39,852 bases of DNA, taken from the NCBI GenBank assembly GCA_017519005.1, contig JAFWTG010000133.1, forward strand, positions 1 to 39,852, read 5' to 3'. This document shows, piece by piece, positions 20,575 through 38,782 of the stretch (position 1 is the stretch's first letter; each line of letters opens with the position of its first letter). The notes beneath the pieces are model-generated. The model had not been told where the DNA came from, did no database searches, and worked only from the letters and a program-made list of their open reading frames with translations. Source of the DNA: Oscillospiraceae bacterium. GTDB lineage: Bacteria > Bacillota > Clostridia > Oscillospirales > Oscillospiraceae. The translations under genes and the position numbers were made by a program.

Positions 20575-22659
20575 ATGCTGGAACTGCTCTCTCCCGCCGG
20601 ATCCATGGATTCGCTCCGCGCGGCGGTACAAAGCGGCGCCGACGCCGTATATCTGGGCTCCGGCCCCTTCAACGCGCGACAGAACGCCAAGAACTTCTCT
20701 CTGGATGAGTTGGCGGACGCCGTGCGCTATTGTCACGTCCGGGGGGTTCAGGTCCATCTGACCCTGAACACCCTGGTGACGGACCGGGAGCTGGAGCAGG
20801 CCGCTCAGACCATCACCGCCGCCGTTCAGGCCGGCGTGGACGCCTTCATCGTCCAGGATCTGGGCCTGGTGTCCCTGCTGCGGCAGATGGCCCCCGAGGT
20901 TCCCATCCACGCCTCCACCCAGATGTCGATCCACTCGCTGGACGGGGTTCTGCGGGCGGCGGCTCTGGGCGTCAGCCGGGTGGTGCTGGCCCGGGAGCTG
21001 AGCCGGGAGGATATCGCCTATATCTGCCGCAACAGCCCCGTCGAGATCGAGGTCTTCGTCCACGGGGCGCTGTGCATGTGCTATTCCGGACAGTGTTATT
21101 TCTCCGCGGTCGTCGGCTCCCGCTCCGGCAACCGGGGCCAGTGCGCGCAGCCCTGCCGCCTGGCCTACGGCTACGGCCGCTACGAGGACAAGTACCCGCT
21201 GAGCCTCAAGGACAACTGCCTGATCCCCTGGGTCGGGGAACTGGAACGCCTGGGGGTGGCCTCCGTCAAGATCGAGGGCCGCATGAAGCGGCCGGAATAC
21301 GTGGCCGTGGCCACCCGGCTCTACCGGGCCGCCATCGACGGGCAAAGCGTCTCTCCCGCCGAGATGCGGGATCTGCGGGACGTCTTCTCCCGCCAGGGCT
21401 TCACCCAGGGCTACTACCTGGGCCAGACCGGGCCGGAGATGTTCGGCACCCGCCAGAAGGAGCAGGAAAACAAGGAGCTGCTGCAGCGGGCCCGGGCCGG
21501 CTATGAGAACACCGAGGCTCCGCTGGTCCCCGTGCGCTTCTATGCCGTTCTTAACCACCGGCAGAACGCCATGCTGGCGGTGGAGGACGACCTGGGCAAT
21601 CTCTGCAAAACCGAAGGCCCCGTCCCGCAGGCCGCCGTCTCCCGGCCCCTGACCCAGGAGGCCCTGGCCGAGCGCCTGGCAAAGACCGGCGGCACGCCCT
21701 ACCGCTGCACGGAAGCAAAGAGCATCATCGAGCCGGGGCTGAGCCTCTCCGCCGCGGCCATCAACGCCATGCGCCGGGAGCTGCTGGCCCATCTCACCGC
21801 CGTCCGCGGCCGCCAGCGGGACCGGGAGCTGAACTCCTATTCTCCCGTCAAGCGCTATCCCGGCCAGAGCAAGCCGCCCCGCTGGACCGTGGGGGTCCTG
21901 AGCCCGGAGCAGCTGACGCCGAAGCTGCTGGCCATGAAGCCCGCCCGGCTTTACGTTCCCTTGTCCATGTTCAAGCAGGACAGCGGCTGGATGGCCCGGG
22001 TCCCGGCGCAGACGGAGCTGGCGGCGGTGCTGCCCCGGGTGATCCGGGACGGCGAGACCGCGCAGGTCCTGGCCGCTCTGGATCTGGCCCACGGCCTGGG
22101 GGTCCGCCTGGCCCTCTGCGGAAATCTGGGCCATATCGACCTGGCCCGCTCCCGGGGCTTCGCGGTCTGCGGCGACTTCGGCCTGAATCTCTTCAACTCC
22201 CGGGCCATGAACGTCGCCCGGGGCCTGGGCCTGGAGAGCGCCACGGTGAGCTTTGAGCTGACTCTGCCCCGGATCCGGGACCTCGGCAAGCCCATTCCCA
22301 CGGAGCTGCTGGCCTACGGCCGCCTGCCGCTGATGCTGACGGAGAACTGCGTTATCAAGAATCGCTCCGGCCGCTGCGCCTGCCACGCCGGTCCCACCAA
22401 ATTGGTGGACCGGAAGGGCGAGGAGTTCCGGGTCCTGCCGGACCAGGACAGCTGCCGCAGCGTCATCTACAACGGCAAGAAGCTCTATCTGCTGGACAAG
22501 CTCCCCGAGCTGCGGGGCCTGGGGCTCTGGGCGCTGCGGCTCCAGTTCACCACCGAGAACCCTCTGGAGGTGGACGCCGTGATCTCCGCCCTCCGGAGCG
22601 GAGGAAGCTTCGACCCCGGAGCCTGCACCAGGGGGCTGTACTACCGGGGAGTAGAGTAA
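20575..22659 (+). CDS. U32 family peptidase / tRNA-rRNA hydroxylation-type protein
   Basis: This 694-residue protein starts MLELLSPAGSMDSLRAAVQS with SGADAVYLG, as U32 proteins do. The U32 signature lies at EVFVHGALCMCYSGQCYFS, followed by cysteines in RGQCAQPCRLAYGYG. A long C-terminal part (about 370-694) with an RSGRCACHAG cysteine cluster resembles the DUF3656-containing RlhA type. Members are annotated as collagenase-like peptidases, but characterised relatives (TrhP, RlhA) hydroxylate tRNA or 23S rRNA. I favour RNA modification over proteolysis. The stop codon overlaps the first unit of a heptamer array that bridges to maf. Confidence 0.88.
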   Translation: MLELLSPAGSMDSLRAAVQSGADAVYLGSGPFNARQNAKNFSLDELADAVRYCHVRGVQVHLTLNTLVTDRELEQAAQTITAAVQAGVDAFIVQDLGLVSLLRQMAPEVPIHASTQMSIHSLDGVLRAAALGVSRVVLARELSREDIAYICRNSPVEIEVFVHGALCMCYSGQCYFSAVVGSRSGNRGQCAQPCRLAYGYGRYEDKYPLSLKDNCLIPWVGELERLGVASVKIEGRMKRPEYVAVATRLYRAAIDGQSVSPAEMRDLRDVFSRQGFTQGYYLGQTGPEMFGTRQKEQENKELLQRARAGYENTEAPLVPVRFYAVLNHRQNAMLAVEDDLGNLCKTEGPVPQAAVSRPLTQEALAERLAKTGGTPYRCTEAKSIIEPGLSLSAAAINAMRRELLAHLTAVRGRQRDRELNSYSPVKRYPGQSKPPRWTVGVLSPEQLTPKLLAMKPARLYVPLSMFKQDSGWMARVPAQTELAAVLPRVIRDGETAQVLAALDLAHGLGVRLALCGNLGHIDLARSRGFAVCGDFGLNLFNSRAMNVARGLGLESATVSFELTLPRIRDLGKPIPTELLAYGRLPLMLTENCVIKNRSGRCACHAGPTKLVDRKGEEFRVLPDQDSCRSVIYNGKKLYLLDKLPELRGLGLWALRLQFTTENPLEVDAVISALRSGGSFDPGACTRGLYYRGVE

Positions 22660-22692
22660 GTAAGAATTCAGAATTAAGAAGTAAGAAGTGAA
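22658..22692 (+). repeat. Heptamer array 1 (AAGTAAG/AATTAAG), between U32 gene and maf
   Basis: Five consecutive 7-nt units: AAGTAAG, AATTCAG, AATTAAG, AAGTAAG, AAGTGAA. They begin inside the U32 stop codon and end 3 nt before the maf ATG. No proper Shine-Dalgarno remains for maf; AAGAAGTG from the array is the only candidate. Confidence 0.85.
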
Positions 22693-22695
22693 AAT

Positions 22696-23379
22696 ATGGA
22701 ACTGATCCTTGGCTCCCAGTCGCCGCGGCGGCGGGAGCTGCTGGAGCGGATGGGCCTGAAATTCCGGGTCCTGACCGCCGATATCGACGAAACGAAATAC
22801 GAGACGGAGGACCCCGAGGCCTCCGTGCGCCGAATCTGCCGGGCCAAGGCTGCCGCCGTGGCGGAGCGCCTGAAGCGGGAGAATTCTCAGTTCTCAGCGC
22901 TCCATTCTCAATTGGTACTGGCCTCCGACACCATCGTGGTGCTGGACGGACGGATTCTGGGCAAGCCCCATGACGCGGCCGAGGCGAAGGCCATGCTGCG
23001 GGCCCTCTCCGGCCGGGAGCACGCCGTGTATACGGCCTTCACCCTGCTGCCCGTCGGGGGAACAGCGAACGAGACGGCGGGGGACGGGGGACGCGGGTCC
23101 TTCGGCTCCGGCTTCGCCTCCGCTCAGGACGACCAGCGCGGAGCCTGTACGCACTGTGAAAAAACGCTCGTGAAATTCCGGGAGCTGACGGAGGCGGAGA
23201 TCGACGCCTACACGGCCTCCGGCGAGCCCATGGACAAGGCCGGCGCCTACGGCATTCAGGGCCTGGGGGCCATGCTGGTGGCGGGCATCCGGGGGGATTT
23301 CTTCACAGTCATGGGCCTGCCGGTGTGCGCCCTGACCCTGGCCTTGAAGCGCTATGGGCTCGACCCGCTTTCCCCGTAA
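22696..23379 (+). CDS. maf: Maf-family nucleoside triphosphate pyrophosphatase with two repeat-derived inserts
   Basis: Maf hydrolyses dTTP/UTP or modified nucleotides. The family blocks are present: LILGSQSPRRRELLERMG, ADIDETKYE, LASDTIVVLDGRILGKP (catalytic D78), FRELTEAEIDAY and MDKAGAYGIQGLGA. The 227 residues exceed the usual 190-200 because of two inserts: 62-72 (NSQFSALHSQ) from a heptamer array, and about 121-154 (GGTANETAGDGGRGSF and on) from GGGGAAC-like units plus a dispersed palindrome. Both keep frame and lie between conserved blocks. The stop codon lies in the edge of another dispersed palindrome. The neighbours mreC and mreD fit the common maf-mre linkage. Confidence 0.92.
   Translation: MELILGSQSPRRRELLERMGLKFRVLTADIDETKYETEDPEASVRRICRAKAAAVAERLKRENSQFSALHSQLVLASDTIVVLDGRILGKPHDAAEAKAMLRALSGREHAVYTAFTLLPVGGTANETAGDGGRGSFGSGFASAQDDQRGACTHCEKTLVKFRELTEAEIDAYTASGEPMDKAGAYGIQGLGAMLVAGIRGDFFTVMGLPVCALTLALKRYGLDPLSP
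22879..22913 (+). repeat. Heptamer array 2, inside maf
   Basis: Units GAGAATT, CTCAGTT, CTCAGCG, CTCCATT, CTCAATT in register. They encode the first extra segment of Maf. The motif is the reverse complement of the AATTGAG-type units found elsewhere. Confidence 0.8.
23058..23160 (+). repeat. Composite insert inside maf: heptamers plus dispersed palindrome
   Basis: GGGGAAC and AGCGAAC units are followed by CGGGGGA CGGGGGA CGCGGGT (period 7). A copy of the dispersed element TTCGGCTCC...CTCCGCTCAGGACGAC follows, the complement of the GTCATCCTGAGCGGAG family. It adds about 34 codons in frame. Confidence 0.75.
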
Positions 23380-23466
23380 GGGGCGGCGTCCTCCGAAGCA
23401 AGGCAAGTCCTTCCGGGGACGCCCCGCGCCTCCCGTTCTCTGATCCGTTCGGGACGCCGGCCCCTG
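23371..23466. repeat. GTAGGGGCGGCGTC-type palindrome between maf and mreC
   Basis: The left arm GTAAGGGGCGGCGTCC pairs imperfectly with the right arm GGGACGCCGGCCCC about 75 nt later. The maf stop codon TAA is part of the left arm. The same family recurs at 30789-30866 and 38801-38881. Confidence 0.65.
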
Positions 23467-23499
23467 CGGGCCGCATCTTCAATTCAGGAGAAACGAGCT

Positions 23500-24330
23500 A
23501 TGAAAAAGCATTTATCCGCCAAGACCAAATGGCTGATCGTCGCCTCCATTCTGCTGGCGGGGCTGATGACCGTGACCGCGGCCACCAACCGGGGCCGGCC
23601 CGGCGAGAGCCTGGTCCAGACCGCTCTGACGCCCTTCCGCTCCGCGGCCAGCGCCCTGGTGCGGCAGATCGAGCGCTACTACGACTACGTGTTCCGCTAC
23701 GAGTCCCTCCAGGCGGAGAACGACGCCCTGAAAAAGCAGATTCTCACCATGGAGGAGGACGTCCGCAGCGCGGACTCCCTGCAGCGGGAGAACGAGCGGC
23801 TCCACCAGCTGCTGGGTATGCTGGAGGAGCACGAGGACTGGGTGCCTGCCTCAGCCTATATCATTGCCTGGGAGGACAGCAGCTGGCGCTCCGCCTTCAC
23901 CATCGGCAAGGGAACCAACTCCGGCATCCATGAGGGCATGGTGGCCGTCACGGAGTACAACCAGGTGGTGGGCCTGGTGACTGCCGCCGGTCCCAACTGG
24001 GCCACCGTCACGACGGTGCTGGACTCCGCTCTGGGCATTTCCGCCACCGTAGCCTCCACGGGCTACAACGGCGTGGTGGAGGGCGCGCTGGCCACCGGCT
24101 CCCAGGGCCTGCTGCGGATGAACTATCTGCCCACGGACTCGGTCCTGCGCAACAACGACCAGGTCCTGACCACCGGCTCCACGGTCTATCCCCGGGGCCT
24201 CATCATCGGCTACATCACCGACGCCGACTTCGACCAGACCGGCGTGGCCAAATACGCCCTGCTCAGGCCCGCCGCGGACTTTGACGATCTGGAGCAGGTG
24301 TTTATCATTACGGATTACGAGAACCAGTAA
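23500..24330 (+). CDS. mreC: Rod shape-determining protein MreC
   Basis: MreC is a scaffold of the cell-elongation machinery. The 276 residues include one N-terminal membrane segment (TKWLIVASILLAGLMTVTA), a coiled coil (about 65-110, YESLQAENDALKKQ) and the paired beta-barrel part (AYIIAWEDSSWRSAFTIGKG, VGLVTAAGPNWATVTTVLD, LTTGSTVYPRGLIIGYI). An AGGAG site precedes the ATG. It starts the mreC-mreD-PBP2 cluster. mreB, usually just upstream, is not in the window. Confidence 0.96.
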   Translation: MKKHLSAKTKWLIVASILLAGLMTVTAATNRGRPGESLVQTALTPFRSAASALVRQIERYYDYVFRYESLQAENDALKKQILTMEEDVRSADSLQRENERLHQLLGMLEEHEDWVPASAYIIAWEDSSWRSAFTIGKGTNSGIHEGMVAVTEYNQVVGLVTAAGPNWATVTTVLDSALGISATVASTGYNGVVEGALATGSQGLLRMNYLPTDSVLRNNDQVLTTGSTVYPRGLIIGYITDADFDQTGVAKYALLRPAADFDDLEQVFIITDYENQ

Positions 24331-24333
24331 TTA

Positions 24334-24361
24334 TGCATCCTGCATTCTGCAGTTTGCATTT
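24334..24361 (+). repeat. Heptamer array 3 (TGCATTC), between mreC and mreD
   Basis: Four units, TGCATCC, TGCATTC, TGCAGTT, TGCATTT, followed by TGAAAGG, which runs into the mreD ribosome-binding site. The array fills the whole gap after the mreC stop. Confidence 0.8.
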
Positions 24362-24378
24362 TGAAAGGAGGGACCGCG

Positions 24379-24915
24379 TTGTTCAAATACTTTCACCTGA
24401 CGAAGCTGCAGTGGCAAGGGATTCTGAGATGGTCCCTCTACGGGCTGCTGACTCTGCTGGTGCTGCTTTTGCAGACCGTGGTGCTGTCCCAGCTTCCGGT
24501 CTGGGGGGCAAAGCTGACGCCGCTGCCGGCGCTGATCGTCTGCGTCTGCGTCCGGGAGGGGCCGGAGAAGGGTGGGCTCTACGCCCTCCTGGCCTCTCTG
24601 CTCTGGTGTCTGTCCGGCGCGGATTACGGCAACCTCTCCCTGGCAGTGATCCCCGTGGGCGCCATGCTCTCCGCCGTGCTCTGCCGGGCGGTGCTGACGC
24701 TCCGCTTCCTGCCCACGGCTCTGTGCTGTCTGGCCGTGACCCTGGCCAACGCCGCCGTGATCTTCGTCTTCAAGCTGATTCTCCCGCCCACCATCGCCCT
24801 GGAGAATCTCTGGCGGGTCCTCCTGCCCGGCGCGGCCCTTTCCATGGCCTTTGTGCCGCTCCATTACTTGCTGGTGAAGCTCATCAGCAGAATCGGGGTG
24901 CGAGATGCGTTATAA
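24379..24915 (+). CDS. mreD: Rod shape-determining protein MreD
   Basis: This 178-residue membrane protein with about five hydrophobic segments is the MreD partner of MreC in the elongasome. MreD is weakly conserved, so position between mreC and PBP2, size and topology carry the assignment. I chose TTG at 24379 because AAAGGAGGG (24364-24372) lies 6 nt upstream; a TTG at 24361 is in frame but has no ribosome site. The 3' end overlaps the PBP2 start by 11 nt. Confidence 0.88.
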   Translation: MFKYFHLTKLQWQGILRWSLYGLLTLLVLLLQTVVLSQLPVWGAKLTPLPALIVCVCVREGPEKGGLYALLASLLWCLSGADYGNLSLAVIPVGAMLSAVLCRAVLTLRFLPTALCCLAVTLANAAVIFVFKLILPPTIALENLWRVLLPGAALSMAFVPLHYLLVKLISRIGVRDAL

Positions 24916-26971: not shown

Positions 26972-26973
26972 TC

Positions 26974-27071
26974 AGGGAACAGGGAACGGGGAACAGGGAA
27001 CAGGGAACGGGGAACGGGGAACAGGGAACAGGGAACAGGGAACGGGGAACAGGGAACAGGGAACAGGGAAC
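26974..27071 (+). repeat. Heptamer array 4: 14 units of (A/G)GGGAAC
   Basis: Fourteen uninterrupted 7-nt units, ten AGGGAAC and four GGGGAAC, start 2 nt after the PBP2 stop codon. An inverted array of the same motif and the same count lies at 27626-27723 inside the pseudouridine synthase gene, so the two could pair. Confidence 0.97.
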
Positions 27072-27085
27072 AGGAGCGCCCGTAG

Positions 27086-27247
27086 GGGACGGGTCTCCCG
27101 TCCCGCCGGGTCCCTGCCGTACCACGCCGTAGGGGCGATCATTGATCGCCCGGCGTTCGGTACGAACGCAATTTGCCGGAGGCAAATCCCGACCACCGAC
27201 CGGCTGCGAGGGATCGCCCTGCGGTCGATTGTTCGCCTGCGGCGAAC
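27086..27247. repeat. Chain of five perfect short hairpins with 1-3-nt loops
   Basis: In order: GGGACGGG-TCT-CCCGTCCC (27086), GGGCGATCA-T-TGATCGCCC (27133), CGTTCG-GTA-CGAACG (27154), ATTTGCC-GGA-GGCAAAT (27171) and GTTCGCC-TGC-GGCGAAC (27231). No credible gene lies in the 384-nt gap 26972-27355; it is filled by this chain, the heptamer array and the terminator. Confidence 0.85.
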
Positions 27248-27355: not shown

Positions 27356-28477
27356 TTAAATTTTACTTCTCAGCTCCGCCCGGGAGACGAAGGTCAGCCG
27401 TTCTCCGGTCAGCGGGTTGTCCAGGGAGACCCGCCGGGCGACCAGCTGCTGGCCTGCCGGAGCAGGGGACGGCGGACAAGCGATGCCTGTCCCCGCAGGC
27501 GGAGTCATTCCGAGCGCAGCGAGGAATCCGCATCCTTCGTCCCCTGATGCCTGATGCCTATTGCCTGGTGCCTCGTCGGTGCGTGGTAACGGTGGCGAGC
27601 AATGCTCGCCGCTACAGGCGGGCCCGTTCCCTGTTCCCCGGTCTCCGTTCCCTGTTCCCCGGTCTCCGTTCCCTGTTCCCCGTTCCCCGTTCCCTGTTCC
27701 CTGTTCCCCGTTCCCTGTTCCCTGGTACTGGGGATCCCCCAGGATCGGGAAGCCCAGGTACGAGCAGTGGACCCGCAGCTGGTGGGTGCGTCCGGTGAGG
27801 GGGCGAAGCTCCAGGCGGCAAATGGGGGTTCCGTCCGGCAGGCGCTCCGGCCCCCGTGCCAGGACCCGGAAGCGGGTCCTGGCTGGCTTGCCCTCCGGGC
27901 TGACGCAGCGCAGCAGACTGGGGGCCGGGCATCTGCCGATCGGCAGGTCGATGAGCCCCTCGTCCTCCGCCGGTCCGCCCGCGGTCAGGGCCTCGTAGAC
28001 CTTTTCCACCCGGCCCGCGTCCAGCTCCTCCATCAGCAGCCAGTGGGCCCAGGCGTTCTTGGCGAAGACCACCACGCCCATGGTGTCCCGGTCCAGGCGG
28101 GTCAGCACGTGGACGGCGCAGGCCTGGCCGGTACGCCGATAGTAGCCCAGCAGCCGGTTGGCCAGGGTCCCGGTCTGGCGGTGGAAGGTGGGATGGACGA
28201 TGACGCCCGCCGGCTTGTCCAGGACGATCATGCATTCGTCCTCGTAGAGGATGGAGAGCGGCCCGTCCTCGGCGGGAAAGTCCGGCGTGCGCTCCTCGAT
28301 GGTGACGCGCACCTGATCCCCCGGCTCCAGGACGCGGTTGGTGTGGGCCGGCTCCCCGTTGACCCGAAAGGCGTCCAGGGGCTTCAGCCGCCGCACCAGG
28401 CCGTCGGAGATCCGCAGCTCCCGCCGCAGGGCGGAGAGCAGCCTGGTTTTGCGCGTCATCGTCACGGTCAGTATCAT
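27356..28477 (-). CDS. RluA/RluD-family pseudouridine synthase with large repeat-derived insert
   Basis: This enzyme isomerises uridine in rRNA or tRNA. It has an S4-like N-terminal part (LRISDGLVRRLKPLDAFRVN) and catalytic D129 in TRLDRDTMGVVVFAKN; DKPAGVIVHPT and LRPLTGRTHQLRVH are the other RluD-family blocks. After GDPQYQ (about 252) roughly 90 residues (253-343) derive from heptamers and palindromes (GTGNGEQGTGNGERG and on). The normal ending resumes at QQLVARRVSLDNPLTGERLT. Total length is 373 residues against about 300 normally. The ATG at 28477 has GGAGG 7-8 nt upstream; a more upstream start would read through an inserted element. The exact RNA target is unknown. Confidence 0.88.
   Translation of the reverse strand: MILTVTMTRKTRLLSALRRELRISDGLVRRLKPLDAFRVNGEPAHTNRVLEPGDQVRVTIEERTPDFPAEDGPLSILYEDECMIVLDKPAGVIVHPTFHRQTGTLANRLLGYYRRTGQACAVHVLTRLDRDTMGVVVFAKNAWAHWLLMEELDAGRVEKVYEALTAGGPAEDEGLIDLPIGRCPAPSLLRCVSPEGKPARTRFRVLARGPERLPDGTPICRLELRPLTGRTHQLRVHCSYLGFPILGDPQYQGTGNGEQGTGNGERGTGNGDRGTGNGDRGTGNGPACSGEHCSPPLPRTDEAPGNRHQASGDEGCGFLAALGMTPPAGTGIACPPSPAPAGQQLVARRVSLDNPLTGERLTFVSRAELRSKI
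27504..27529. repeat. GTCATTCCGAGCG-type dispersed palindrome inside the pseudouridine synthase gene
   Basis: GTCATTCCGAGCG followed by CAGCGAGGAATCC. This family is widespread in gut Firmicutes; related copies lie at 37570-37609 and inside maf. Confidence 0.75.
27544..27571. repeat. Heptamer array 5 (CTGATGC), inside the pseudouridine synthase gene
   Basis: Four units: CTGATGC, CTGATGC, CTATTGC, CTGGTGC. They are part of the in-frame insert. Confidence 0.8.
27594..27610. repeat. GGCGAGC hairpin inside the pseudouridine synthase gene
   Basis: GGCGAGC-AAT-GCTCGCC, a 7-bp stem with a 3-nt loop, with flanks GGT and GCTAC. A second copy with loop ACT lies at 34985-35001, with the same flanks. 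Confidence 0.8.
27626..27723. repeat. Heptamer array 6: 14 units of GTTCCC(T/C), inside the pseudouridine synthase gene
   Basis: Fourteen 7-nt units, two of them GGTCTCC variants, in the opposite orientation to the array at 26974-27071. Read on the minus strand they encode the GTGNGE/RGTGNGD repeats. Loss or gain of one unit would change the frame of the last ~120 codons. Confidence 0.95.
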
Positions 28478-28501
28478 CCGACAGGCCTCCTGTTCTGCAG
28501 A

Positions 28502-28621
28502 TTTGGATTTGTCGGGCTCTCGCCGTAGGGCGGCCTGACCCCAGGCCGCCGCTGACACGCTGGTGGTTATCGCGGCGGCCAGAGGTCTGGCCGCCCTACG
28601 CAACATCCATACAAATCCCGA
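28502..28621. mobile_element. 75-bp hairpin element, copy A (MITE-like)
   Basis: The core 28525-28599 runs from GTAGGGCGGCC to GGCCGCCCTAC and folds over most of its length. It is flanked by GGATTTGT (28505) and ACAAATCC (28611), a short terminal inverted repeat. Copies B and C lie at 33511-33623 and 37303-37420. Here it occupies the leader of the pseudouridine synthase gene. Confidence 0.8.
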
Positions 28622-30423: not shown

Positions 30424-32199
30424 TCAGGTCGCTCCGTCCGGAGCGGACCGGGCGGCTTGCAGGAGGGCGGTTTTTTCATTGGGCAGCGCGCCGCTCAGGA
30501 CGGCCTCCAGCAGGGCGTTCAGGACCGCGCCGAGGGCGGGGCCCTTGGGGATGCCCAAAGCCATCAGATCGTTCCCGTTGACCGCCAGATCCTTCAGAGA
30601 GAAAACGGCTTCCTGGGCCAGCAGCTCCCGGGCCAGGGTCTCCAGCCGGTCGCAGGCCGCGGCCCGGCCCCGGCAGTCCGGGTGGTGGGCCAGGGCGTCC
30701 GCCCGCTTCAGATCCAGGAGGCGGAAGAAGTCCTCTTCGCCCAGCTTGCCGATCAGTCTGCGGACGGCGCGCTCCGCCGCGGAAATTTTCGCAGGGGGCG
30801 GCGTCCTCGATGCCCCGGACCCTCCGGACGCTGATGCCTGCGGGGCGTCGAGGGCGCCGCCCCCTGCGGGCTCCACCGGCGGGTCGATGGGGTAGTCGTG
30901 CAGCTCCACCAGCCTCGAGACCCGGTTGACCGTGTCCTTGTCGAATTTCAGCCGGGTCAGGGCCTCCCGGGCCAGGGCTGCGCCGGGCTTGGCGTGGCCG
31001 TAGAAGTGGCCCCGGCCCGTCTCGTCCAGGGTGAAGCAGGCGGGCTTGCCCGCGTCGTGGAGCAGGGCGGCCCAGCGGCTGATCCTGTCCGGAGGGGTGT
31101 TCTCCGCGGCGACGGCGCTGTGCTCCAGCACGTCCCAGCAGTGGTAGGGGCTGCGCTGGTCCAGCCCGGCCATGGGGGCCAGCTCCGGCAGGGGGACCGC
31201 CAGAATGGGCCAGTATGCCGTCACGATCCGGCGGACGCCGGGGCCAAGAAGCAGCTTGGTCAGCTCCACGGCAAGGCGCTCCTTGCTGACCAGGGCGAGG
31301 GTATCCTTCAGCGCCAGGGCCGCGGCAGCGGTGGCGGGATCGATTTCAAAATCCAGCTGGGAAGCGAAGCGCAAGGCCCGCAGAATCCGCAGGGCGTCCT
31401 CGTTGAAGCGGGCATAGGGGTCCCCCACGCAGCGGATGATCCGGGCGTTCAGATCAGCCTGCCCGCCGAAGGGGTCAACCAAGCCTTCCCCTTGAGGGGA
31501 AGGCGGCGCGCAGCGCCGGATGCGGGGCGTATCGACAGGCCGCCAGGCCATCGCGTTGATCGTGAAGTCCCGCCGCGCCAGGTCCTCCTCCAAAGAGCGC
31601 GTAAAGGCCACGGAATCCGGGTGCCGGTGGTCGGCGTAGCCCGTCTCGGTGCGGAAGGTGGTGATCTCCAGGGGCAGGCCCTCCAGCAGCACCGTGACGG
31701 TGCCGTGCTTCAGGCCGGTCTCGATGATGCGCTCCCCGGCGAAGACCGCCTCCGTCTGCTCCGGCAGGGCCGCGGTGGTGATATCCCAGTCCCCGGGCTC
31801 CCGGCCCAGCAGGGCGTCCCGAACGCAGCCGCCCACCAGGTACGCCTCGAAGCCCGCGGCAGTCAGCCGGGAGAGGGCCTCGCGGGCAGGGGCGGGAGGA
31901 AGGGACAGGTCACAAGTGACAGGTGACAGGTAGCGGTCGTCAGACGGGGAGGCGCTTCCAAATTTGTCATTGCGAGACCAGTCCGGAGACTGGTCGTGGC
32001 AATCCGTTCCCCTGCCCCCTGGCGACCGGTGACTTGTGACCGGTGTGTCATTGGACGCCACCTCATCCGCCCCAGTGTGCGCACTGGGGCACCTTCCCCT
32101 CAAGGGGAAGGCTTTTTCTGGTGACTGGTGACTGGTGACTGTTGCCTTGCGTCCCTCGTCCCCTGTTCCCGGTTCCCTGTTCCCTGTTCCCTTGCCCAT
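30424..32199 (-). CDS. cca: CCA-adding enzyme (tRNA nucleotidyltransferase) with repeat-derived leader and inserts
   Basis: This enzyme adds or repairs the tRNA 3' CCA. Class II blocks are clear: AYLVGGCVRDALLGREPGDW, LARRDFTINAMAW, IIRCVGDPYARFNEDALRIL, and an HD domain with LLHDAGKP. The 591 residues are far above the usual 450. Residues 1-103 are wholly repeat-derived; the normal protein would begin near PAREALSRL. About 221-239 (TPRIRRCAPPSPQGE) and 442-473 (PAGGGALDAPQASASG region) are further in-frame inserts between conserved blocks. The ATG at 32199 overlaps the upstream stop as TGATG, suggesting coupling; GTG at 32061 is an alternative. Either way translation passes through repeats. 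Confidence 0.9.
   Translation of the reverse strand: MGKGTGNREPGTGDEGRKATVTSHQSPEKAFPLRGRCPSAHTGADEVASNDTPVTSHRSPGGRGTDCHDQSPDWSRNDKFGSASPSDDRYLSPVTCDLSLPPAPAREALSRLTAAGFEAYLVGGCVRDALLGREPGDWDITTAALPEQTEAVFAGERIIETGLKHGTVTVLLEGLPLEITTFRTETGYADHRHPDSVAFTRSLEEDLARRDFTINAMAWRPVDTPRIRRCAPPSPQGEGLVDPFGGQADLNARIIRCVGDPYARFNEDALRILRALRFASQLDFEIDPATAAAALALKDTLALVSKERLAVELTKLLLGPGVRRIVTAYWPILAVPLPELAPMAGLDQRSPYHCWDVLEHSAVAAENTPPDRISRWAALLHDAGKPACFTLDETGRGHFYGHAKPGAALAREALTRLKFDKDTVNRVSRLVELHDYPIDPPVEPAGGGALDAPQASASGGSGASRTPPPAKISAAERAVRRLIGKLGEEDFFRLLDLKRADALAHHPDCRGRAAACDRLETLARELLAQEAVFSLKDLAVNGNDLMALGIPKGPALGAVLNALLEAVLSGALPNEKTALLQAARSAPDGAT
30789..30866. repeat. GCAGGGGGCGGCGTC-type palindrome inside cca
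   Basis: Arms of about 27 nt with two mismatches enclose a 25-nt loop. It encodes the second internal insert of Cca. The family is that of 38801-38881. Confidence 0.8.
31484..31518. repeat. CCTTCCCCT hairpin unit inside cca
   Basis: CCTTCCCCT-TG-AGGGGAAGG is followed by CGGCGC-GCA-GCGCCG. It encodes PPSPQGEG, the first internal insert of Cca. The first hairpin recurs at 32092-32111. Confidence 0.8.
31904..32192. repeat. Composite repeat block forming the Cca N-terminal leader
   Basis: From left: GACAGGT heptamers (31904-31931); a hairpin GACCAGTC-CGGA-GACTGGTC (31976-31995) within ATTGCGA...GGCAAT; GGTGACT-type heptamers (32021-32048); hairpin GCCCCAGTG-TGCG-CACTGGGGC (32069-32090); hairpin CCTTCCCCT-CA-AGGGGAAGG (32092-32111); TGGTGAC heptamers x3 (32119-32139); GTTCCCT heptamers x4 (32165-32192). 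The block alternates heptamer arrays and hairpins. Confidence 0.85.
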
Positions 32200-33510: not shown

Positions 33511-33623
33511 TCGGGATTTGTATGGATGTTGCGTAGGGCGGCCAGACCTCTGGCCGCCGCGATAACCACCAGCGTGTCAGCGGCGGCCTGGGGTCAGGCC
33601 GCCCTACAGTTCTACAAATCCGA
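33511..33623. mobile_element. 75-bp hairpin element, copy B
   Basis: The core 33533-33607 is identical in length to copies A and C. The outer ends TCGGGATTTGTA (33511) and TACAAATCCGA (33613) form a near-perfect terminal inverted repeat. It fills most of the gap between the lyase-family gene and msrA. Confidence 0.85.
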
Positions 33624-33629
33624 ATATGC

Positions 33630-34133
33630 TTATTGCTTCCGGTTCTTTACTTTCTGAATCAGGTCCCTGGGAATATGGCAGTACCCCGCCGGGTTTTTGA
33701 TGAGGTAGTCCTGGTGGTAGTCCTCCGCGGGGAAGAACTGCTCCAGGGGCTTGCACTCGACGGCGAGGGGCTGGCCGACCTTCGCTTCCAGCTTGGCAAG
33801 CTCCTCCCGGATCGTCGGCAGCAGAGCCTCGTCGGTGTAGTAGATGCCGGTCCGGTACTGCTCGCCCTCGTCGGGGCCCTGCTTGTTGACGGAGGTGGGG
33901 TCGATGCACAGGAAATAGCAGTCCAGCAGCTCGGAAGTGGGCAGGACGGTCTCGTCGTAGACCACTTCCACGGTCTCGGCGTGGCCGGTGTGGCGGTATT
34001 TGACTTCTTCGTAAGTGGGGTTTTCGGTACGCCCGTTGGCGTAGCCGACGCGGGTGGAGATCACGCCGGGGAGTTGGCGCAGAAAGTGCTGGGCGCCCCA
34101 AAAGCACCCGGCGGCAAGGTAAAGTTTCGTCAT
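33630..34133 (-). CDS. msrA: Peptide methionine (S)-S-oxide reductase MsrA
   Basis: MsrA repairs oxidised methionine. The 167 residues are the usual single-domain length. The catalytic cysteine is in LAAGCFWGAQHF near the start; VISTRVGYANG, YRHTGHAETVEVVYD and KQGPDEGEQYRTGIYY are family blocks. There is no MsrB fusion. It lies between hairpin element B (downstream) and a heptamer/hairpin block (upstream). A GGAGGA ribosome site precedes the ATG. Confidence 0.97.
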   Translation of the reverse strand: MTKLYLAAGCFWGAQHFLRQLPGVISTRVGYANGRTENPTYEEVKYRHTGHAETVEVVYDETVLPTSELLDCYFLCIDPTSVNKQGPDEGEQYRTGIYYTDEALLPTIREELAKLEAKVGQPLAVECKPLEQFFPAEDYHQDYLIKNPAGYCHIPRDLIQKVKNRKQ

Positions 34134-34159
34134 CGTATTTTCCTCCTTTTTGGGGGTGG

Positions 34160-34265
34160 AATTAAAAAATTAAGAATTAAGAATTGAGAATTAAGAATGA
34201 TTGGAGTTTTTCAAATTGCGATTTGAAAAACACATTCACTTCTTACTTCTTACTTGTTACTTGCT
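34160..34265. repeat. Heptamer - hairpin - heptamer composite
   Basis: AATTAAG units (34168-34195) come first, then a perfect 11-bp hairpin GTTTTTCAAAT-TGCG-ATTTGAAAAAC (34206-34231), then ACTTCTT units (34238-34265). The right-hand array contributes the last codons and stop of the small membrane protein. The hairpin recurs at 38753-38782. Confidence 0.85.
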
Positions 34266-34876
34266 GGGAAGAGGCAGGCGATGATCGCGGTGTGGACGAA
34301 AAGCAGCGGCAGCCGCAGCAGCGTCGGGTCGACGACCGTATCCAAAGCCGCCGCCAGAAGCCGCAGGCCCAGGGCGGCGATCAGCAGGAGCCAGACGCAG
34401 CGCTGCCGGGTCAGGCGCACGCTGCGCCAGACGGCGGCGACGGCGGCGGCCAGGAAGCAGAGAGGCAGCAGGCGCAGCAGGGTCCAAGCTTGGGAAGCCT
34501 CCCCCCGGAGCATCACGGCGGCGGAGGCGGCGCAGACCAGCAGCCGGACCAGGGCGGCCCCCACGGCGGTCCAGAAGCTCCAGCCGTCCCGGATCTCCCC
34601 GCCGAAGCGCTTCTCCCAGAGCAGATAGAGCAGCAGCCAGGCTCCGGTGGAGAGCAGGCAGTCCGCCAGCTCCCCCAGGGCCGGCCAGGGCCCGCGGAGC
34701 GCCGGGAGCCAGGCCGTCAGCAGCAGAGGCAGCAGAAAAGCCAGATCGGAGGCCGCGCAGAGGGAGGCGGCCCCTGCGGCCAGCCTGCCCGTCCGCCCGG
34801 TCTTCCGGAGCCGCGTCGCGCAGACGATACAATATACGATTTCCGCGGCAAGAAGGGCGGCGGCAAGATATTCCAT
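34250..34876 (-). CDS. Small polytopic membrane protein, unknown function
   Basis: This 208-residue hydrophobic protein has about six predicted membrane segments (for example LAAALLAAEIVYCIVCA, LAFLLPLLLTAWLPAL, CVWLLLIAALGLRLLAAAL) and positively charged short loops such as TRLRKTGRTGR. I do not recognise a family. An AAAGGGATG sequence lies 7 nt before the ATG. The final residues (PASNK) and stop are contributed by the heptamer array at 34238-34265, so the original C-terminus may have been altered. Codon use looks like its neighbours. It could be a spurious reading of GC-rich sequence, but the regular membrane segments favour a real gene. Confidence 0.6.
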   Translation of the reverse strand: MEYLAAALLAAEIVYCIVCATRLRKTGRTGRLAAGAASLCAASDLAFLLPLLLTAWLPALRGPWPALGELADCLLSTGAWLLLYLLWEKRFGGEIRDGWSFWTAVGAALVRLLVCAASAAVMLRGEASQAWTLLRLLPLCFLAAAVAAVWRSVRLTRQRCVWLLLIAALGLRLLAAALDTVVDPTLLRLPLLFVHTAIIACLFPASNK

Positions 34877-34900
34877 ACAGACGCATCCCTTTCATTTCCA

Positions 34901-35001
34901 TCGTTCAAATGGCAATTGGAACGATTCCACAATTATTCATTCTTCATTATTCATTTTTCATTTGCCCCAGGCGGGGTACGGGGTGGCGAGCACTGCTCGC
35001 C
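34901..35001. repeat. Hairpin, heptamer array and GGCGAGC hairpin upstream of the membrane protein
   Basis: TCGTTCAAAT-GGCA-ATTGGAACGA (34901-34924, one mismatch) is followed by CACAATTAT, four heptamers TATTCAT, TCTTCAT, TATTCAT, TTTTCAT (34934-34961), then GGCGAGC-ACT-GCTCGCC (34985-35001). The hairpin plus array is a relative of the element at 38725-38782 in inverse orientation. Confidence 0.8.
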
Positions 35002-35026
35002 GCTACGGGTGGGAAATCCCTGATCC

Positions 35027-37210
35027 CTATTTCTTGTTCTTCTCCATCCATTTGGCCAGCGCGTCGGCCATGGCGGGGTTGGCCTCCGTCTTGTTCTCCT
35101 GCTGGGCCATGAAGCGGCGGACGTCGGATTTGCCGGCGCCGTCCCGCTTGCGGCGGGCCTCGAAATCAGACAGCTTTTCCCGGTAGCCGCAGGCGCAGGC
35201 GAAGGTCTGCTTGTCCCCCTCGCCCCAGAGCTCCAGCTTCTTGTGGCAGTTGGGGCAGCGGGCGTTGGTGATCTGGGTGGTCCGGCGGCGGAAGCCGCAC
35301 TCCCGGTCCGGGCAGACCAGCAGCTCGCCCCGCTTGTCCTTCACCAGCAGCAGCAGCTTGCCGCACTCCGGGCAGGGCTTGCGGGTCTGGTTGTCGTGGG
35401 AGTAGGAGGCCTCGCTGGCCTTCACGTCCTTCACCAGCTTGGCGGCGTACTGCCGCATCTCCGCCACGAAATCCGTGTCCCGCTCCTGGCCCTTGGCGAT
35501 CCGGGCCAGCCGGTCCTCCCAGCGGGCCGTCAGCTCCGCGCTGCGGAGCTCCGCCGGGGCCAGGTCCACCAGCTGGATACCCTTGGAGGTGGGGATCAGG
35601 GTCTTGCCCTGGCGCTCCACGTAGAAGCTGGAAAAGAGCTTTTCGATGATGTCCGCCCGGGTGGCGGGGGTGCCCAGGCCAGAGGTCTCCTGCAGAATCT
35701 TTTGCAGGTTCTTATCGCTGACCTGGCCCTGGGGATGCTCCATGGCCGTCAGCAGCGTGGCCTCGGTGTAGCGGGCCGGGGGCGCGGTCTTGCCGTTGGT
35801 GAGCCGCAGCTTCCGGACCTTCAGCCGCTGGCCCTTTTGGAGCTCCGGCAGACGCTGCTCCTCCTCGGCCTCGGCGTCCTCGTCCTCCAGGGCGGCAAAG
35901 TTTTTGTCGTAGGCCGCTTTCCAGCCCTGGTCCAGGACCCGTTTGCCGGAGGCGGTGAAGCTCTGCTCCCCGATCTTCACGGTCAGGGAGATCTGCTCGT
36001 ATTCAAAGGGCGGCAGCAGCACCGCCAGGAAGCGGCGCACCACCAGATCATAGATATTCTTCTCGGGGCCCGTCAGCTCGTAAAGGCTGGCGGCCTCCTC
36101 TGTGGGAATGATGGCGTGGTGATCCGTGACCTTGGCGTTGTTCACCAGGTATTTCGTCTGGAAGGGCTTCTTCCGCTGAATGGCCCAGGCCAGCTCCTTG
36201 TATTCCCCCTGGGCCACGGCCCGGAGCCGGTCCGGCAGGGTGGGGACCACGTCGTCGGAGATGTAGCGGCTGTCGGTGCGGGGGTAGGTGAGGGCCTTGT
36301 GGCGCTCGTAGAGGCTCTGCATCAGGTTCAGGGTCTCCTTGGCGGAGTAGGCGTACTTCTTGTTGGCGTCCCGCTGCAGCTCCGTCAGATCGTAGGCCGC
36401 CGGGGGCGGGGTCATCTTCCGCATCTTGGAGATCTGGGTGATGACGGCCTCCTTTCCCTCGCACTGCTTCAGCAGGGCCTCGAGCTTCGCCTTGTCGAAG
36501 GAGCGGCCGTTCCCCTTTTCGTCCTTCCAGGAGGCCCGGAAGCCCTCCAGCTCGGCGCAGAGGCCGTAGAAGTCCTTGGGGACGAAGCGGCGGATCTCGT
36601 TCTCCCGCTCCACCACCAGGGCCAAAGTCGGGGTCTGGACCCGGCCCGCGGAGAGCTGGGCGTTGTGCTTGCAGGTGAGCGCCCGGGTCACGTTGAGGCC
36701 CACCAGCCAGTCCGCCTCGGACCGCGCCTGGGCGGATTTGAAGAGATTGTCGTAATCCCGGGCGGGCTTCAGATTGGCGAAGCCCTCCCGGATGGCCTTG
36801 TCGGTCTGGGAGGAGATCCACAGCCGCTTGGCGGGCTTGTTCCAGCCGGCCTTGACCATGATCCAGCGGGCCACCAGCTCGCCCTCCCGGCCCGCGTCGG
36901 TGGCGATGACCAGCTCCGATACGTCGCCCCGCTTCATCAAATTCGTGACCACCTTGTACTGGCGGGAGGTCTCGGGGATCACCACCAGCTTCATCTTCTC
37001 CGGCAGCATGGGAAGGTCGTCCATGTTCCATTTTTCCAGCTTTTTGTCGTAGACGTCCGGGTCCGCCAGGGTCACCAGATGGCCCAGCGCCCAGGTGACG
37101 ACGTAGCGATCCCCCTCCAGGTAGCCGTCGCCGCCGCGCTTGCAGCCCAGAACCCGGGCCAGCTCCTTGCCGACGGAGGGCTTTTCCGCCAAAACTAAGG
37201 TTTTCGCCAT
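35027..37210 (-). CDS. topB: DNA topoisomerase III
   Basis: This is a type IA topoisomerase of 727 residues. The Toprim domain starts KTLVLAEKPSVGKELARVLG. The active-site tyrosine is Y309 in ALTYPRTDSRYISDDVV. TTGA and TTDAGREGELVARWI-type Toprim residues (ATDAGREGELVARWI) are present. Two C-terminal zinc-finger-like modules are visible: CPECGKLLLLVKDKRGE with CPDRECGFRRR, and ARCPNCHKKLEL with CACGYREK. The ATG at 37210 has AAGGAGG upstream and is preceded by its own promoter. Its length fits TopB/TopIII of Firmicutes. Confidence 0.95.
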   Translation of the reverse strand: MAKTLVLAEKPSVGKELARVLGCKRGGDGYLEGDRYVVTWALGHLVTLADPDVYDKKLEKWNMDDLPMLPEKMKLVVIPETSRQYKVVTNLMKRGDVSELVIATDAGREGELVARWIMVKAGWNKPAKRLWISSQTDKAIREGFANLKPARDYDNLFKSAQARSEADWLVGLNVTRALTCKHNAQLSAGRVQTPTLALVVERENEIRRFVPKDFYGLCAELEGFRASWKDEKGNGRSFDKAKLEALLKQCEGKEAVITQISKMRKMTPPPAAYDLTELQRDANKKYAYSAKETLNLMQSLYERHKALTYPRTDSRYISDDVVPTLPDRLRAVAQGEYKELAWAIQRKKPFQTKYLVNNAKVTDHHAIIPTEEAASLYELTGPEKNIYDLVVRRFLAVLLPPFEYEQISLTVKIGEQSFTASGKRVLDQGWKAAYDKNFAALEDEDAEAEEEQRLPELQKGQRLKVRKLRLTNGKTAPPARYTEATLLTAMEHPQGQVSDKNLQKILQETSGLGTPATRADIIEKLFSSFYVERQGKTLIPTSKGIQLVDLAPAELRSAELTARWEDRLARIAKGQERDTDFVAEMRQYAAKLVKDVKASEASYSHDNQTRKPCPECGKLLLLVKDKRGELLVCPDRECGFRRRTTQITNARCPNCHKKLELWGEGDKQTFACACGYREKLSDFEARRKRDGAGKSDVRRFMAQQENKTEANPAMADALAKWMEKNKK

Positions 37211-37261
37211 GGGAAACCTCCTTGGAATGCAAAAATGCAAAATTTTCGTAAGTTGGGATAT

Positions 37262-37290
37262 ATTATAATGTGTCGGTTGGGAAAAATCAA
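37262..37290 (-). promoter_or_regulatory. Promoter of topB
   Basis: On the minus strand TTGATT (37290-37285) and TATAAT (37267-37262) are 17 nt apart. Hairpin element C begins just upstream of the -35 box. Confidence 0.75.
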
Positions 37291-37302
37291 CAGGAAAGAG
37301 AC

Positions 37303-37420
37303 AAATCGGGATATGTCGGGATGCTGCGTAGGGCGGCCAGACCCCTGGCCGCCGCGATGACCGCCAGCGTATCGGCGGCGGCCTGGGGTCAGGCCGCCCT
37401 ACGGCGCTGCTCGATAAACC
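37303..37420. mobile_element. 75-bp hairpin element, copy C
   Basis: The core 37328-37402 matches copies A and B with a few substitutions, several of which keep stem pairing. The left end AAATCGGGATATGTCGGG is recognisable; the right end has decayed. It lies between the divergent topB and hrcA promoters. In the 456-nt gap 37211-37666 the remainder is promoters, CIRCE boxes and one further palindrome; no gene is seen. Confidence 0.8.
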
Positions 37421-37472
37421 CCAATTCCCGCGCGGCAACTCGTGAACAATTCGTAAATATTCAAAATTGCCC

Positions 37473-37501
37473 TTGACTTTTCCCTTGGGCTGGTGTATAT
37501 T
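37473..37501 (+). promoter_or_regulatory. Promoter of the hrcA operon
   Basis: TTGACT (37473-37478) and TATATT (37496-37501) are spaced by 17 nt. The -10 box abuts the CIRCE operator, which suits repression by HrcA. Confidence 0.88.
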
Positions 37502-37526
37502 GGCACTCAGAGAGATGGAGTGCTAA
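37500..37526 (+). promoter_or_regulatory. CIRCE operator (HrcA binding site)
   Basis: TTGGCACTC-N9-GAGTGCTAA, one mismatch from the consensus TTAGCACTC-N9-GAGTGCTAA. It overlaps the transcription start of hrcA-grpE-dnaK. Confidence 0.95.
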
Positions 37527-37550
37527 GCACTTCCATATATAGAGTGCCAG
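37524..37550 (+). promoter_or_regulatory. Second, degenerate CIRCE-like box overlapping the first
   Basis: TAAGCACTT-N9-GAGTGCCAG (7/9 matches in each half) has the same 9-nt spacer and shares three bases with the first box. Confidence 0.6.
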
Positions 37551-37569
37551 GGCGAATCGGAAGGAGAAC

Positions 37570-37609
37570 GGATTCTTCGACTCCGCTGCGCTCCGCTCAG
37601 AATGACAAG
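37570..37609. repeat. GTCATTCTGAGCGGAG-type dispersed palindrome in the hrcA leader
   Basis: On the minus strand it reads CTTGTCATTCTGAGCGGAGC and ends GTCGAAGAATCC. Relatives lie inside maf (23090-23135) and the pseudouridine synthase gene. It is within the 5' UTR of hrcA. Confidence 0.75.
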
Positions 37610-37666
37610 TACGCGCTCTGATCTCGATACCCGGATCCTGAAATTCCGAACAAAGGAGGCGGCACG

Positions 37667-38743
37667 ATGGAATTAAGCGATCGGCAAAAGCAGATCCTGC
37701 GGGCCATTGTGGATATCTACGTCTCCACGGCGGAGCCGGTGGGCTCCAAGGCCATCGCGGCCCTGCCCGACGTGAGCTGCTCCTCCGCCACCATCCGCAA
37801 CGAGATGGCGGAGCTGACCCAGATGGGTCTGCTGGAGCAGCCCCACACCTCCGCGGGACGGGTTCCCTCCCCGGCGGGCTACCGGCTCTACATTGACGAG
37901 CTGATGCAGGACTACCGCCTGAGCCTGGACGAGACCAAGTCTCTCAACGAGGCCCTGGAGCTGAAGAGCCAGGAATTCGACAAGATGATGTCCCAGGTGG
38001 GCAAGCTGGTCTCCAAAATGACCAACCTCCCGGCCTACACCGTGGCCACCCGCCGGAACGAGGCCGTGGCCAAGCACTTCGACCTGATTCAGGCCGGCCC
38101 CGGCAGCATCATCCTGGTGCTGATGCTCTCCGGCGACGTGGTGAAAAACAAGCTGGTGAAGTTGCCCGTGCGGGTCACGGAGGCGGATCTGAAGCTCCTG
38201 GCCGCGGTGCTGAACACCAGTCTGACGGACCTCACCGCCGAGGAGATCACCGGCGAGCTGCTGGATAAGATCACCCGCTCCGCCGGTCCCGCCAGCCCTC
38301 TGGCGCCCCTGGTGATGGACTTCACCCTGGAATGTCTGCGGCAGCAGCACGGGGACGTCCACCTGACGGGCCAGATGCGGCTGCTGGGCCAGCCCGAATA
38401 CAAGGACGCCGCTGGCAAGGCCCAGGAGGTCTTCGAGACCCTGGACGAGGAGCTGATCTCCAATCTCCCGGCGGTGCTGCCCAAGGACGGTCCGGTGCAG
38501 TTCCTGGTGGGCCCCGAGAACGTGGCCAAGGAGCTGAAGGACACCTCCGTCGTCATGATGCGCTTCGACATCGGCGAGGGCATGCAGGGCACCATCGGCG
38601 TCGTCGGCCCCACCCGTATGGACTACGCGAAGATCACCGCCAAGCTGGGCTACTTCGCGGAGAACCTGGGCAGGATGTTCCAGAAGGGCGGCCAGCCCAC
38701 GCCGCCGCCGGCTTTGCCTGACGGAATGAAAAATGAAGAATGA
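37667..38743 (+). CDS. hrcA: Heat-inducible transcription repressor HrcA
   Basis: HrcA binds CIRCE and represses chaperone genes. The 358-residue protein has an N-terminal winged-helix part (LSDRQKQILRAIVDIYVSTA, CSSATIRNEMAELTQMGLLE, PHTSAGRVPSPAGYRLYIDE), a long middle domain and a C-terminal IGPTRMDY-like block (GVVGPTRMDYAKITAKLGYF). The last residues (GMKNEE) and the stop codon come from a heptamer array, so the native C-terminus may have been altered. AAAGGAGG lies upstream of the ATG. It heads the hrcA-grpE-dnaK operon. Confidence 0.97.
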   Translation: MELSDRQKQILRAIVDIYVSTAEPVGSKAIAALPDVSCSSATIRNEMAELTQMGLLEQPHTSAGRVPSPAGYRLYIDELMQDYRLSLDETKSLNEALELKSQEFDKMMSQVGKLVSKMTNLPAYTVATRRNEAVAKHFDLIQAGPGSIILVLMLSGDVVKNKLVKLPVRVTEADLKLLAAVLNTSLTDLTAEEITGELLDKITRSAGPASPLAPLVMDFTLECLRQQHGDVHLTGQMRLLGQPEYKDAAGKAQEVFETLDEELISNLPAVLPKDGPVQFLVGPENVAKELKDTSVVMMRFDIGEGMQGTIGVVGPTRMDYAKITAKLGYFAENLGRMFQKGGQPTPPPALPDGMKNEE

Positions 38744-38782
38744 ATAATTGTGGTGTTTTTCAAATTACCATTTGAAAAACAC
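38725..38782. repeat. Heptamer array and hairpin at the hrcA 3' end
   Basis: AATGAAA, AATGAAG, AATGAAT (38725-38745) include the hrcA stop. They are followed by AATTGTG and the perfect 13-bp hairpin GTGTTTTTCAAAT-TACC-ATTTGAAAAACAC (38753-38782). Confidence 0.85.

Follow-up and report, generated by a model that had tools for sequence, protein, structure and literature searches.

Why should tandem repeats keep one unit length while their motif changes from locus to locus? The question is raised by a contig of an Oscillospiraceae bacterium (assembly GCA_017519005.1, contig JAFWTG010000133.1; C141 of a 2.29-Mb assembly of 141 contigs, 86% complete), which was analysed at its full length of 39,852 bases and is called the window here. 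An earlier interpretation from the letters alone (the sequence-only reading) had named arrays of seven-base units in it, described the conservation of their period as motif-independent, and proposed polymerase slippage or templated addition as the cause. We found two features missing from that account: the arrays are associated with hairpins, and they are paired in inverted fashion under a rule of orientation. On balance we consider it probable that the arrays are the arms and tails of fold-back elements, resembling repetitive extragenic palindromes (REPs), that proliferated in the genus, with the period inherited and homogenised in register.

At least a dozen period-7 arrays had been reported in the window, and Tandem Repeats Finder supported 12 of the 14 named positions (22658, 24330, 26973, 27543, 27623, 31904, 32118, 32152, 34159, 34238, 34932 and 38725); the remaining two, at 22886 (about four degenerate units in the maf gene) and 32028 (two to three degenerate units), are visible by eye alone. 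At a low threshold (score 30) the program returned 15 period-7 rows in the window, three of them previously unnamed (1238, 23078 and 30077), together with 13 period-9 rows of 2.0-2.7 copies each, so that period 7 is numerically unremarkable at that threshold. Under a stricter lag score (match +1, mismatch -2), the window held nine arrays at period 7, one at period 9 and none at periods 2-6, 8 and 10-13; lags 14, 21, 24 and 28 gave five, three, one and two arrays, which we think are mostly echoes.

For genome counts, an array was a stretch with a lag score of at least 14. Across 81 stretches of the genome (the window included; 1,059,420 bases, ~46% of the assembly), 109 arrays had period 7, compared with 0-10 at the other periods from 4 to 12 (ten at 6, eight at 8, three at 9, two at 10, seven at 12 and none at 4, 5 and 11), and the highest count at any other lag from 1 to 30 was 11, at period 15. 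One first-order Markov simulation of 40 of the 81 stretches produced no period-7 array, against 57 in the real sequence. The RNase Y of our genome is most similar to those of Oscillospiraceae. The same bias appeared in relatives: the 80 best RNase Y loci kept, nearly all from Oscillospiraceae or Clostridia assemblies and many from ruminant guts, held 33 arrays at period 7, eight at 6, five at 9 and none at 5, 8 and 10, and samples of 13 genomes of the same genus (591,990 bases) held 75 at period 7 and 0-5 at other periods. Samples of 20 genomes of other genera (319,064 bases) held five period-7 arrays, four of these in a single genome. Parts of the samples of genomes G013, G017 and G020 were picked for matching window repeats, so that array densities there are biased, while the comparison between periods should suffer less. 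Moreover, one GC-rich motif pattern was found in 19 of 24 genus genomes (our own counted) and in none of 36 others. The period-7 excess expected by the sequence-only reading is thus confirmed for the ~46% of the genome covered, and is stronger than that reading had claimed.

That the motif changes from locus to locus was borne out, but the motifs are not unrelated, and the description of the period as motif-independent is not supported. Read on the pyrimidine-rich strand, the arrays of the genome comprise 30 distinct motifs (28 with strands merged), 29 of which are linked via single substitutions: with an edge for each one-base difference the network has 38 edges and a largest component of 29, whereas 300 letter-shuffled sets averaged 18.1 edges (maximum 29), with a largest component of 11.8 on average (maximum 22). 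The relatives' 42 motifs gave 57 edges and a component of 36 (shuffled maxima 40 and 31), and 17 motifs are common to both. Since the motifs form one substitution network, no dedicated seven-base machinery is required: descent with modification could preserve the period. Descent with in-register homogenisation would be expected to leave just this pattern, one period and many motifs.

The hairpins were sought by a strict test within 60 nt of each array read on its pyrimidine-rich strand, arrays without 60-nt flanks (3 of 109 in our genome) being left out. This test superseded a loose regular-expression classification (58 of 109) and replaced an earlier strict one for near-perfect stems (hairpins upstream of 28 of 105 arrays and downstream of 11, and in 1.25% of 400 random sequences). 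Class A hairpins are GC-rich and REP-like; their stems vary and their foot reads CTAC (GTAG on the opposite strand), as in GGCGGTCAATGACCGCCCCTAC followed by AGGCGGGT and then (CTGTTCC)n. Class B hairpins are AT-rich, with the apex ATNGCNAT as search motif and GTTTTTCAAATTGCAATTTGAAAAAC as an example. A hairpin lay at most 60 nt upstream of 50 of 106 arrays (31 class A, 19 class B), and of 33 of 113 in relatives (22 and 11, duplicates dropped); 3,000 random 60-mers gave 31 A and 3 B (~1%) in our genome, and in relatives 21 A and no B. Class B was found upstream only (19 own and 11 in relatives, with none downstream in either), whereas the downstream hairpins, 23 in each set, were all class A and often the next unit of a head-to-tail series. 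Class A was rare on the opposite strand (upstream 0 own and 2 in relatives, downstream 1 and 3), and the GTAG foot of the GC-rich hairpins, where present, nearly always faces the array. In 30-nt windows the mean folding energy dipped to -8.4 at a point 36 nt upstream of the arrays (-6.4 in random genome sequence), and to -11.1 where these were GC-rich. Among 16 AT-rich cores, hand-picked for diversity out of 31, 33 cells were changed on both sides of the stem, against 8.7 in shuffles (0 of 500 as high), and 7 of 11 pairs changed on both sides, against 5.0 (24 of 500 as high).

Neighbouring arrays were then compared by orientation (score at least 10, adjacent, within 300 bp; R for purine-rich and Y for pyrimidine-rich on the + strand). 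Our genome had 24 YY, 19 RY, 10 RR and 1 YR, and the relatives 23 RY, 19 YY, 19 RR and 2 YR, so that the pooled opposite-orientation neighbours were purine-left/pyrimidine-right in 42 cases and reversed in 3. Dropping exact duplicates from the relatives' overlapping loci (L090/L204; L093/L241; L224/L238/L239) had moved the count with a hairpin from 34 of 115 to 33 of 113 and YY from 21 to 19, leaving RY at 23 and YR at 2. Partner motifs of RY pairs lay within one substitution in 14 of 19 own and 13 of 23 relatives' pairs, against a permuted fraction of 0.16 (standard deviation 0.08 own, 0.07 relatives; the relatives' permutation preceded duplicate removal, and its 23 RY pairs include no duplicated locus). 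Same-orientation neighbours match less clearly (own 0.38 vs 0.28 permuted; relatives 0.45 vs 0.25). Two such RY pairs lie in the window: the arms 26973-27074 and 27623-27726, with 57 nt in common in inverted orientation, enclose a 550-bp island with GTAG palindromes, and the arms 34159-34198 and 34238-34263 enclose a class B core. The features of the window are as follows.

22658..22689, + strand: AAGTAAG/AATTAAG array of period 7, 4.6 units, purine-rich on +, flanked by the U32-peptidase gene and maf.
22880..22914, + strand: degenerate AATTCTC-like heptamers (by eye), in frame in maf.
23046..23138, + strand: 92-bp segment in maf (19 bp in G020 and G013, 112 bp in G017).
24330..24363, - strand: weak period-7 array ATTCTGC, just after mreC.
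26973..27074, + strand: purine array CAGGGAA/CGGGGAA, 14.6 units, immediately following the gene for the penicillin-binding protein; it forms the left arm of a ~750-bp island.
27082..27151, + strand: two GTAG-footed palindromes (by eye), GTAG 27082-27085 with GGGACGGGTCTCCCGTCCC and GTAG 27129-27132 with GGGCGATCATTGATCGCCC.
27543..27573, - strand: CCTGATG array, pyrimidine on +, 4.4 units.
27594..27615, - strand: REP-like palindrome GGCGAGCAATGCTCGCC with a CTAC foot (GTAG on -), facing the array at 27623.
27623..27726, - strand: CCCGTTC/CCCTGTT array, pyrimidine on +, 14.3 units; right arm of the island.
28525..28599, unstranded: REP palindrome pair of the GTAGGGCGGCC type (by eye), no heptamer array; the type surrounding the gene on contig C95 that resembles a REP-associated tyrosine transposase (RAYT).
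31904..32192, unstranded: island of arrays and palindromes between methionine-gamma-lyase and CCA-adding-enzyme-like genes; arrays GACAGGT (31904-31931), CTGGTGA (32118-32141) and CCCTGTT (32150-32192).
33533..33607, unstranded: second REP palindrome pair of the GTAGGGCGGCC type (by eye).
34159..34198, + strand: AATTAAG array, purine on +, forming the left arm; a core of 31 nt is identical in G020.
34206..34231, unstranded: AT-rich class B core palindrome GTTTTTCAAATTGCGATTTGAAAAAC.
34238..34263, - strand: ACTTCTT array, pyrimidine on +, right arm.
34900..34925, unstranded: class B palindrome ATCGTTCAAATGGCAATTGGAACGAT.
34932..34963, - strand: ATTATTC array, pyrimidine on +, after palindrome 34900..34925.
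38725..38748, + strand: weak array AATGAAA.

No Rfam match at gathering threshold and no tRNA were found in the window. Copied composites of array and flank occur elsewhere: loci L011:64 and L069:114 have 45 nt of array in common, and their next 40 nt are 93% alike. A minor sister family, ATGAAACT, has period 8 (eight arrays in our genome) and by eye the same AT-rich cores and the same purine-left/pyrimidine-right layout; it can be seen (ATGAAACT / AGTTTCAT) at L051 6128-6259, L052 10889-11029, L080 5195-5300, L031 4243-4277 and L041 4143-4176.

In the explanation we favour, the elements would be small fold-backs around REP-like hairpins, multiplied in the genus, and each array would be copied together with its element, its period inherited and not made anew per site. 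Point mutations may spread across the three to five units by slippage or conversion in register; the motif would thereby drift by single steps while the period stays at 7, or at 8 in one sister lineage. RAYT-like transposases may have moved, or may still move, the GC-rich hairpins, with arrays carried passively, a weaker part of the proposal. As a tentative extension, clearly short of probable, the hairpin, its foot with a seven-base tail and the matched arms that bracket islands could form a composite mobile element propagated as a unit by a RAYT-like protein, its period heritable while the motif drifts base by base. Such a composite of hairpin and heptamer tail would be new relative to the open-licence literature searched.

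What could move such hairpins? Three PF01797 (Y1_Tnp) proteins are encoded in our genome, with NF047646 scores of 57.2, 54.0 and 49.2 against a cut-off of 80 bits; as all three matches fall below it, we call them RAYT-like and not certain RAYTs. By eye, clusters of REP hairpins of the type at 28525-28599 and 33533-33607 surround the C95 gene, and REP hairpins lie around and inside the C120 gene. The third, at locus L170 on C47, is part of a 613-aa open reading frame (ORF) on the - strand that runs from a PfkB-like kinase through repeated peptides PVGAVIGRPLESPQAP to a RAYT-like domain in one open frame, and these peptide repeats look REP-encoded. Of 14 genus genomes with at least 20 hits of a single GC-rich motif pattern, 10 had a PF01797 match; of the 10 genomes with fewer hits, 3 did, a comparison confounded by incompleteness and kinship, and by the fact that PF01797 also covers ordinary IS200-type transposases.

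GTAG REPs are described as 20-40-nt palindromes with an unpaired GTAG foot, of high copy number, intergenic and sometimes intragenic, next to RAYT genes (PMC3733652, PMC8266576). Our genome has both traits, the many-copy palindrome with an unpaired GTAG foot (class A) and the REP-flanked RAYT-like gene. The class B hairpins differ in that the GTAG foot is absent from them, their feet being by eye GGAG, GGTG, GGTA or TGTG. The host differs as well: the list of GTAG repeats in Di Nocera 2013 (PMC3733652) comprises Proteobacteria, Cyanobacteria, Chloroflexi and the PVC group; neither "Firmicutes" nor "Clostridi" occurs in the main text. Our observations place GTAG REP-like systems in a gut and rumen Oscillospiraceae-like genus, outside the phyla listed there. 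TnpAREP is reported to cut at C|T (PMC8266576), and RAYT cleavage at C|T was considered as a source of the units, a suggestion prompted by CT at both ends of the common GC-rich pyrimidine-strand arrays; it was dropped because by eye the GTAG-foot strand bears the purine arrays, and CT is absent from the common GC-rich motifs of these and, on both strands, from several AT-rich motifs.

Arrays turn over between species. The spacer at 31897-32199 measures 302 bp in our genome and 254 bp in G020, with different arrays; from a nearer anchor it measures 192 bp against 321 bp in G017, again with different arrays. The G013 spacer is 18 bp long. Five relatives provided 22 comparisons in which an orthologous spacer bore an array in at least one partner (eight with arrays in both, nine in our genome only, five in the relative only); some of our spacers recur among these, and 35 further comparisons were array-free. 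Two arrays are clearly common to our genome and G020, the closest relative found, both with unchanged unit number: i) that at window 34168, with 31 nt identical and a flank ~87% identical; and ii) L049:2230 against L203:1059, with 27 nt identical, the adjoining class B hairpin nearly so and the far flank different. Gain or loss of units between strains, also the mark of phase-variable simple sequence repeats, had been named as a check on a mechanism acting on seven-nucleotide steps; neither shared array shows any, which leans against such a mechanism, at n = 2 and between different species. At L173 of G020, which corresponds to window 34159-34263, the left arm and half the hairpin are kept and the match breaks at the hairpin centre into another REP sequence, as if by a rearrangement using the palindrome. 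By rough gene calls, 13 of 109 arrays lie within predicted ORFs, and the 50 array-bearing spacers (arrays at contig edges left out) are co-directional in 25 cases, convergent in 16 and divergent in 9.

Several observations weigh against inheritance with a mobile fold-back element: i) the strict test detected neither hairpin class for 56 of 106 arrays in our genome and for 80 of 113 in relatives; ii) the folding energy before AT-rich arrays dips to -6.2 only, a local dip from ~-3.2 and not below random genome, and a lesser dip also occurs downstream (-7.8 over all arrays); iii) the shuffled sets for the motif network preserve letters and not position preferences; iv) four motif-rich genus genomes had no PF01797 protein found, these assemblies being incomplete; v) movement of an element was not seen among the genomes compared; vi) shared unit order, tried as proof of copying, was not discriminating (45 of 91 imperfect arrays, against 41-45 in the control); and vii) a 350-kb plasmid of Trichormus variabilis has eight period-7 arrays against 0-2 at other periods from 4 to 15 and by eye no comparable hairpin rule, one pair being pyrimidine-left and another purine-left. 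With the bias present and no such hairpin anatomy visible in that plasmid, a general seven-base bias may exist apart from the elements.

Such a bias is the substance of a serious rival that is already in print (PMC4692102): a sequence-independent seven-base ruler, with slippage set by approximately the length of DNA held by the polymerase, perhaps most often at fork-stalling hairpins, and motifs that are local accidents. The period-7 bias of unrelated taxa (the Trichormus plasmid, and Xanthomonas, Nostoc and others in PMC4692102) is its chief support, hairpins preceding arrays are consistent with it, and the period-8 family could be accommodated by a ruler that need not be exact. Against it speak the motifs that form one network, the inverted arms that share motifs, and the same unit number of the two shared arrays in two species, and we consider it rather unlikely. 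The slippage or templated addition of the sequence-only reading is possible but not needed.

A selected function, with the purine-left/pyrimidine-right arms acting as long RNA or DNA hairpins (bidirectional terminators, RNA-stability elements or protein-binding sites) and pairing keeping the arms matched, would suit the matched arms, their nearly fixed orientation, the covarying AT-rich cores and the share of convergent spacers (16 of 50 with arrays vs 66 of the 318 gaps that measure 100 bp or more). That excess is modest, however, and the covariation may stem from fold-back copying; an array of one species is often missing or different in the next, and some arrays lie within predicted ORFs (the 13 of 109). 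We regard this explanation as improbable. Chance or an assembly artefact, for which only the fragmented and incomplete assembly speaks, deserves almost no credence given the empty Markov control, the same bias in separately deposited relatives and the arrays shared with G020.

How do these arrays compare with other heptamer repeats? The short tandemly repeated repetitive (STRR) sequences of cyanobacteria are heptanucleotide tandem repeats, and we know of no hairpin rule for them. Rehm et al. 2015 (PMC4692102) mention three tandem heptanucleotides in Calothrix; they describe heptameric repeats as over-represented in bacteria (Xanthomonas, Nostoc and others) and cite the polymerase-size slippage hypothesis for them in the Discussion. 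The G-rich heptamers of Xanthomonas and Nostoc are given there as mainly non-coding and genome-wide, with ~4 units preferred, inverted repeats mentioned, and length and sequence varying between related species. Our arrays resemble them in these points and in period, but differ in having 30 motifs, most without G3 runs, and in being tied to hairpins. A G-quadruplex function fits only a minority of motifs: most of ours lack the combination of at least four units and runs of at least three G, the motifs with G3 being AACAGGG (21 of 109 arrays), AGGGATC (3) and AACGGGG (1). The TAACTGA repeats of Beggiatoaceae, Cyanobacteria and Bacteroidetes (MacGregor 2015, PMC4679880) are likewise seven-base intergenic direct repeats; they are described as a single motif that in BOGUAY lies for the most part directly before start codons, with related heptamers rarely or never repeated, unlike our 30 motifs, with array spacers of all three gene orientations (of 50, 25 co-directional, 16 convergent and 9 divergent). 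Heptamer arrays as tails of REP hairpins, or any such arrays in Clostridia, were not found in the open-licence literature, in agreement with the sequence-only reading, which knew of no clostridial counterpart. Over-representation of heptamers is on record from scattered bacterial lineages, for the cause of which the text of PMC4692102 offers only a hypothesis; the hairpin link, near-fixed orientation and matched arms provide a concrete alternative, inheritance with an element as opposed to fresh slippage.

Some further ideas were set aside. A tail primed at its target, as in short interspersed nuclear elements, was rejected by reasoning because tail motifs differ between copies, and target-site duplication because the flanking arrays are inverted and not direct. 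An apparently odd third unit of four (the deviating unit in 36 of 47 own and 39 of 53 relatives' unique arrays) coincided with a skew of simulated arrays passed through the same detector (657 vs 431 for unit 2); with a direction-neutral detector it shrank to 17:8 own and 16:6 in relatives, and no claim is made. In arrays of 28-33 nt from many motif families, unit 3 of 4 is most often the variant, in part a detector effect, with a residual excess of 33:14 on the 3' side of the centre (own and relatives together). Whether arrays grow from the hairpin end was put to a general test, with ratios of 38:19 in our genome (p 0.016) and 42:39 in relatives (p 0.82), and no claim is made here either.

Two side observations concern islands of the window. 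Positions 325-489 of relative locus L090 match window 27001-27152, inverted in the relative and beside heptamer arrays. Within the heptamer island at 31904..32192, a repeat of the GTCATTGCGAG...GTGGCAATCCG type occupies 31966-32006, which we take to be of a kind familiar from other bacteria.

Heptamer stretches also lie in frame in coding loops of housekeeping genes, such as maf and that for pseudouridine synthase. In maf, a peptide similar to that of the degenerate heptamers (NSQF..LNSQL) is encoded in G017 and not in G020; the 112 bp at the insert of G017 hold other heptamer arrays, and the reading frame stays open in all three sequences (window, G017, G020). The pseudouridine synthase ORF (27356-28606, - strand) includes the array 27623..27726 and is by eye lengthened by the island at ~27465-27725 relative to L093.

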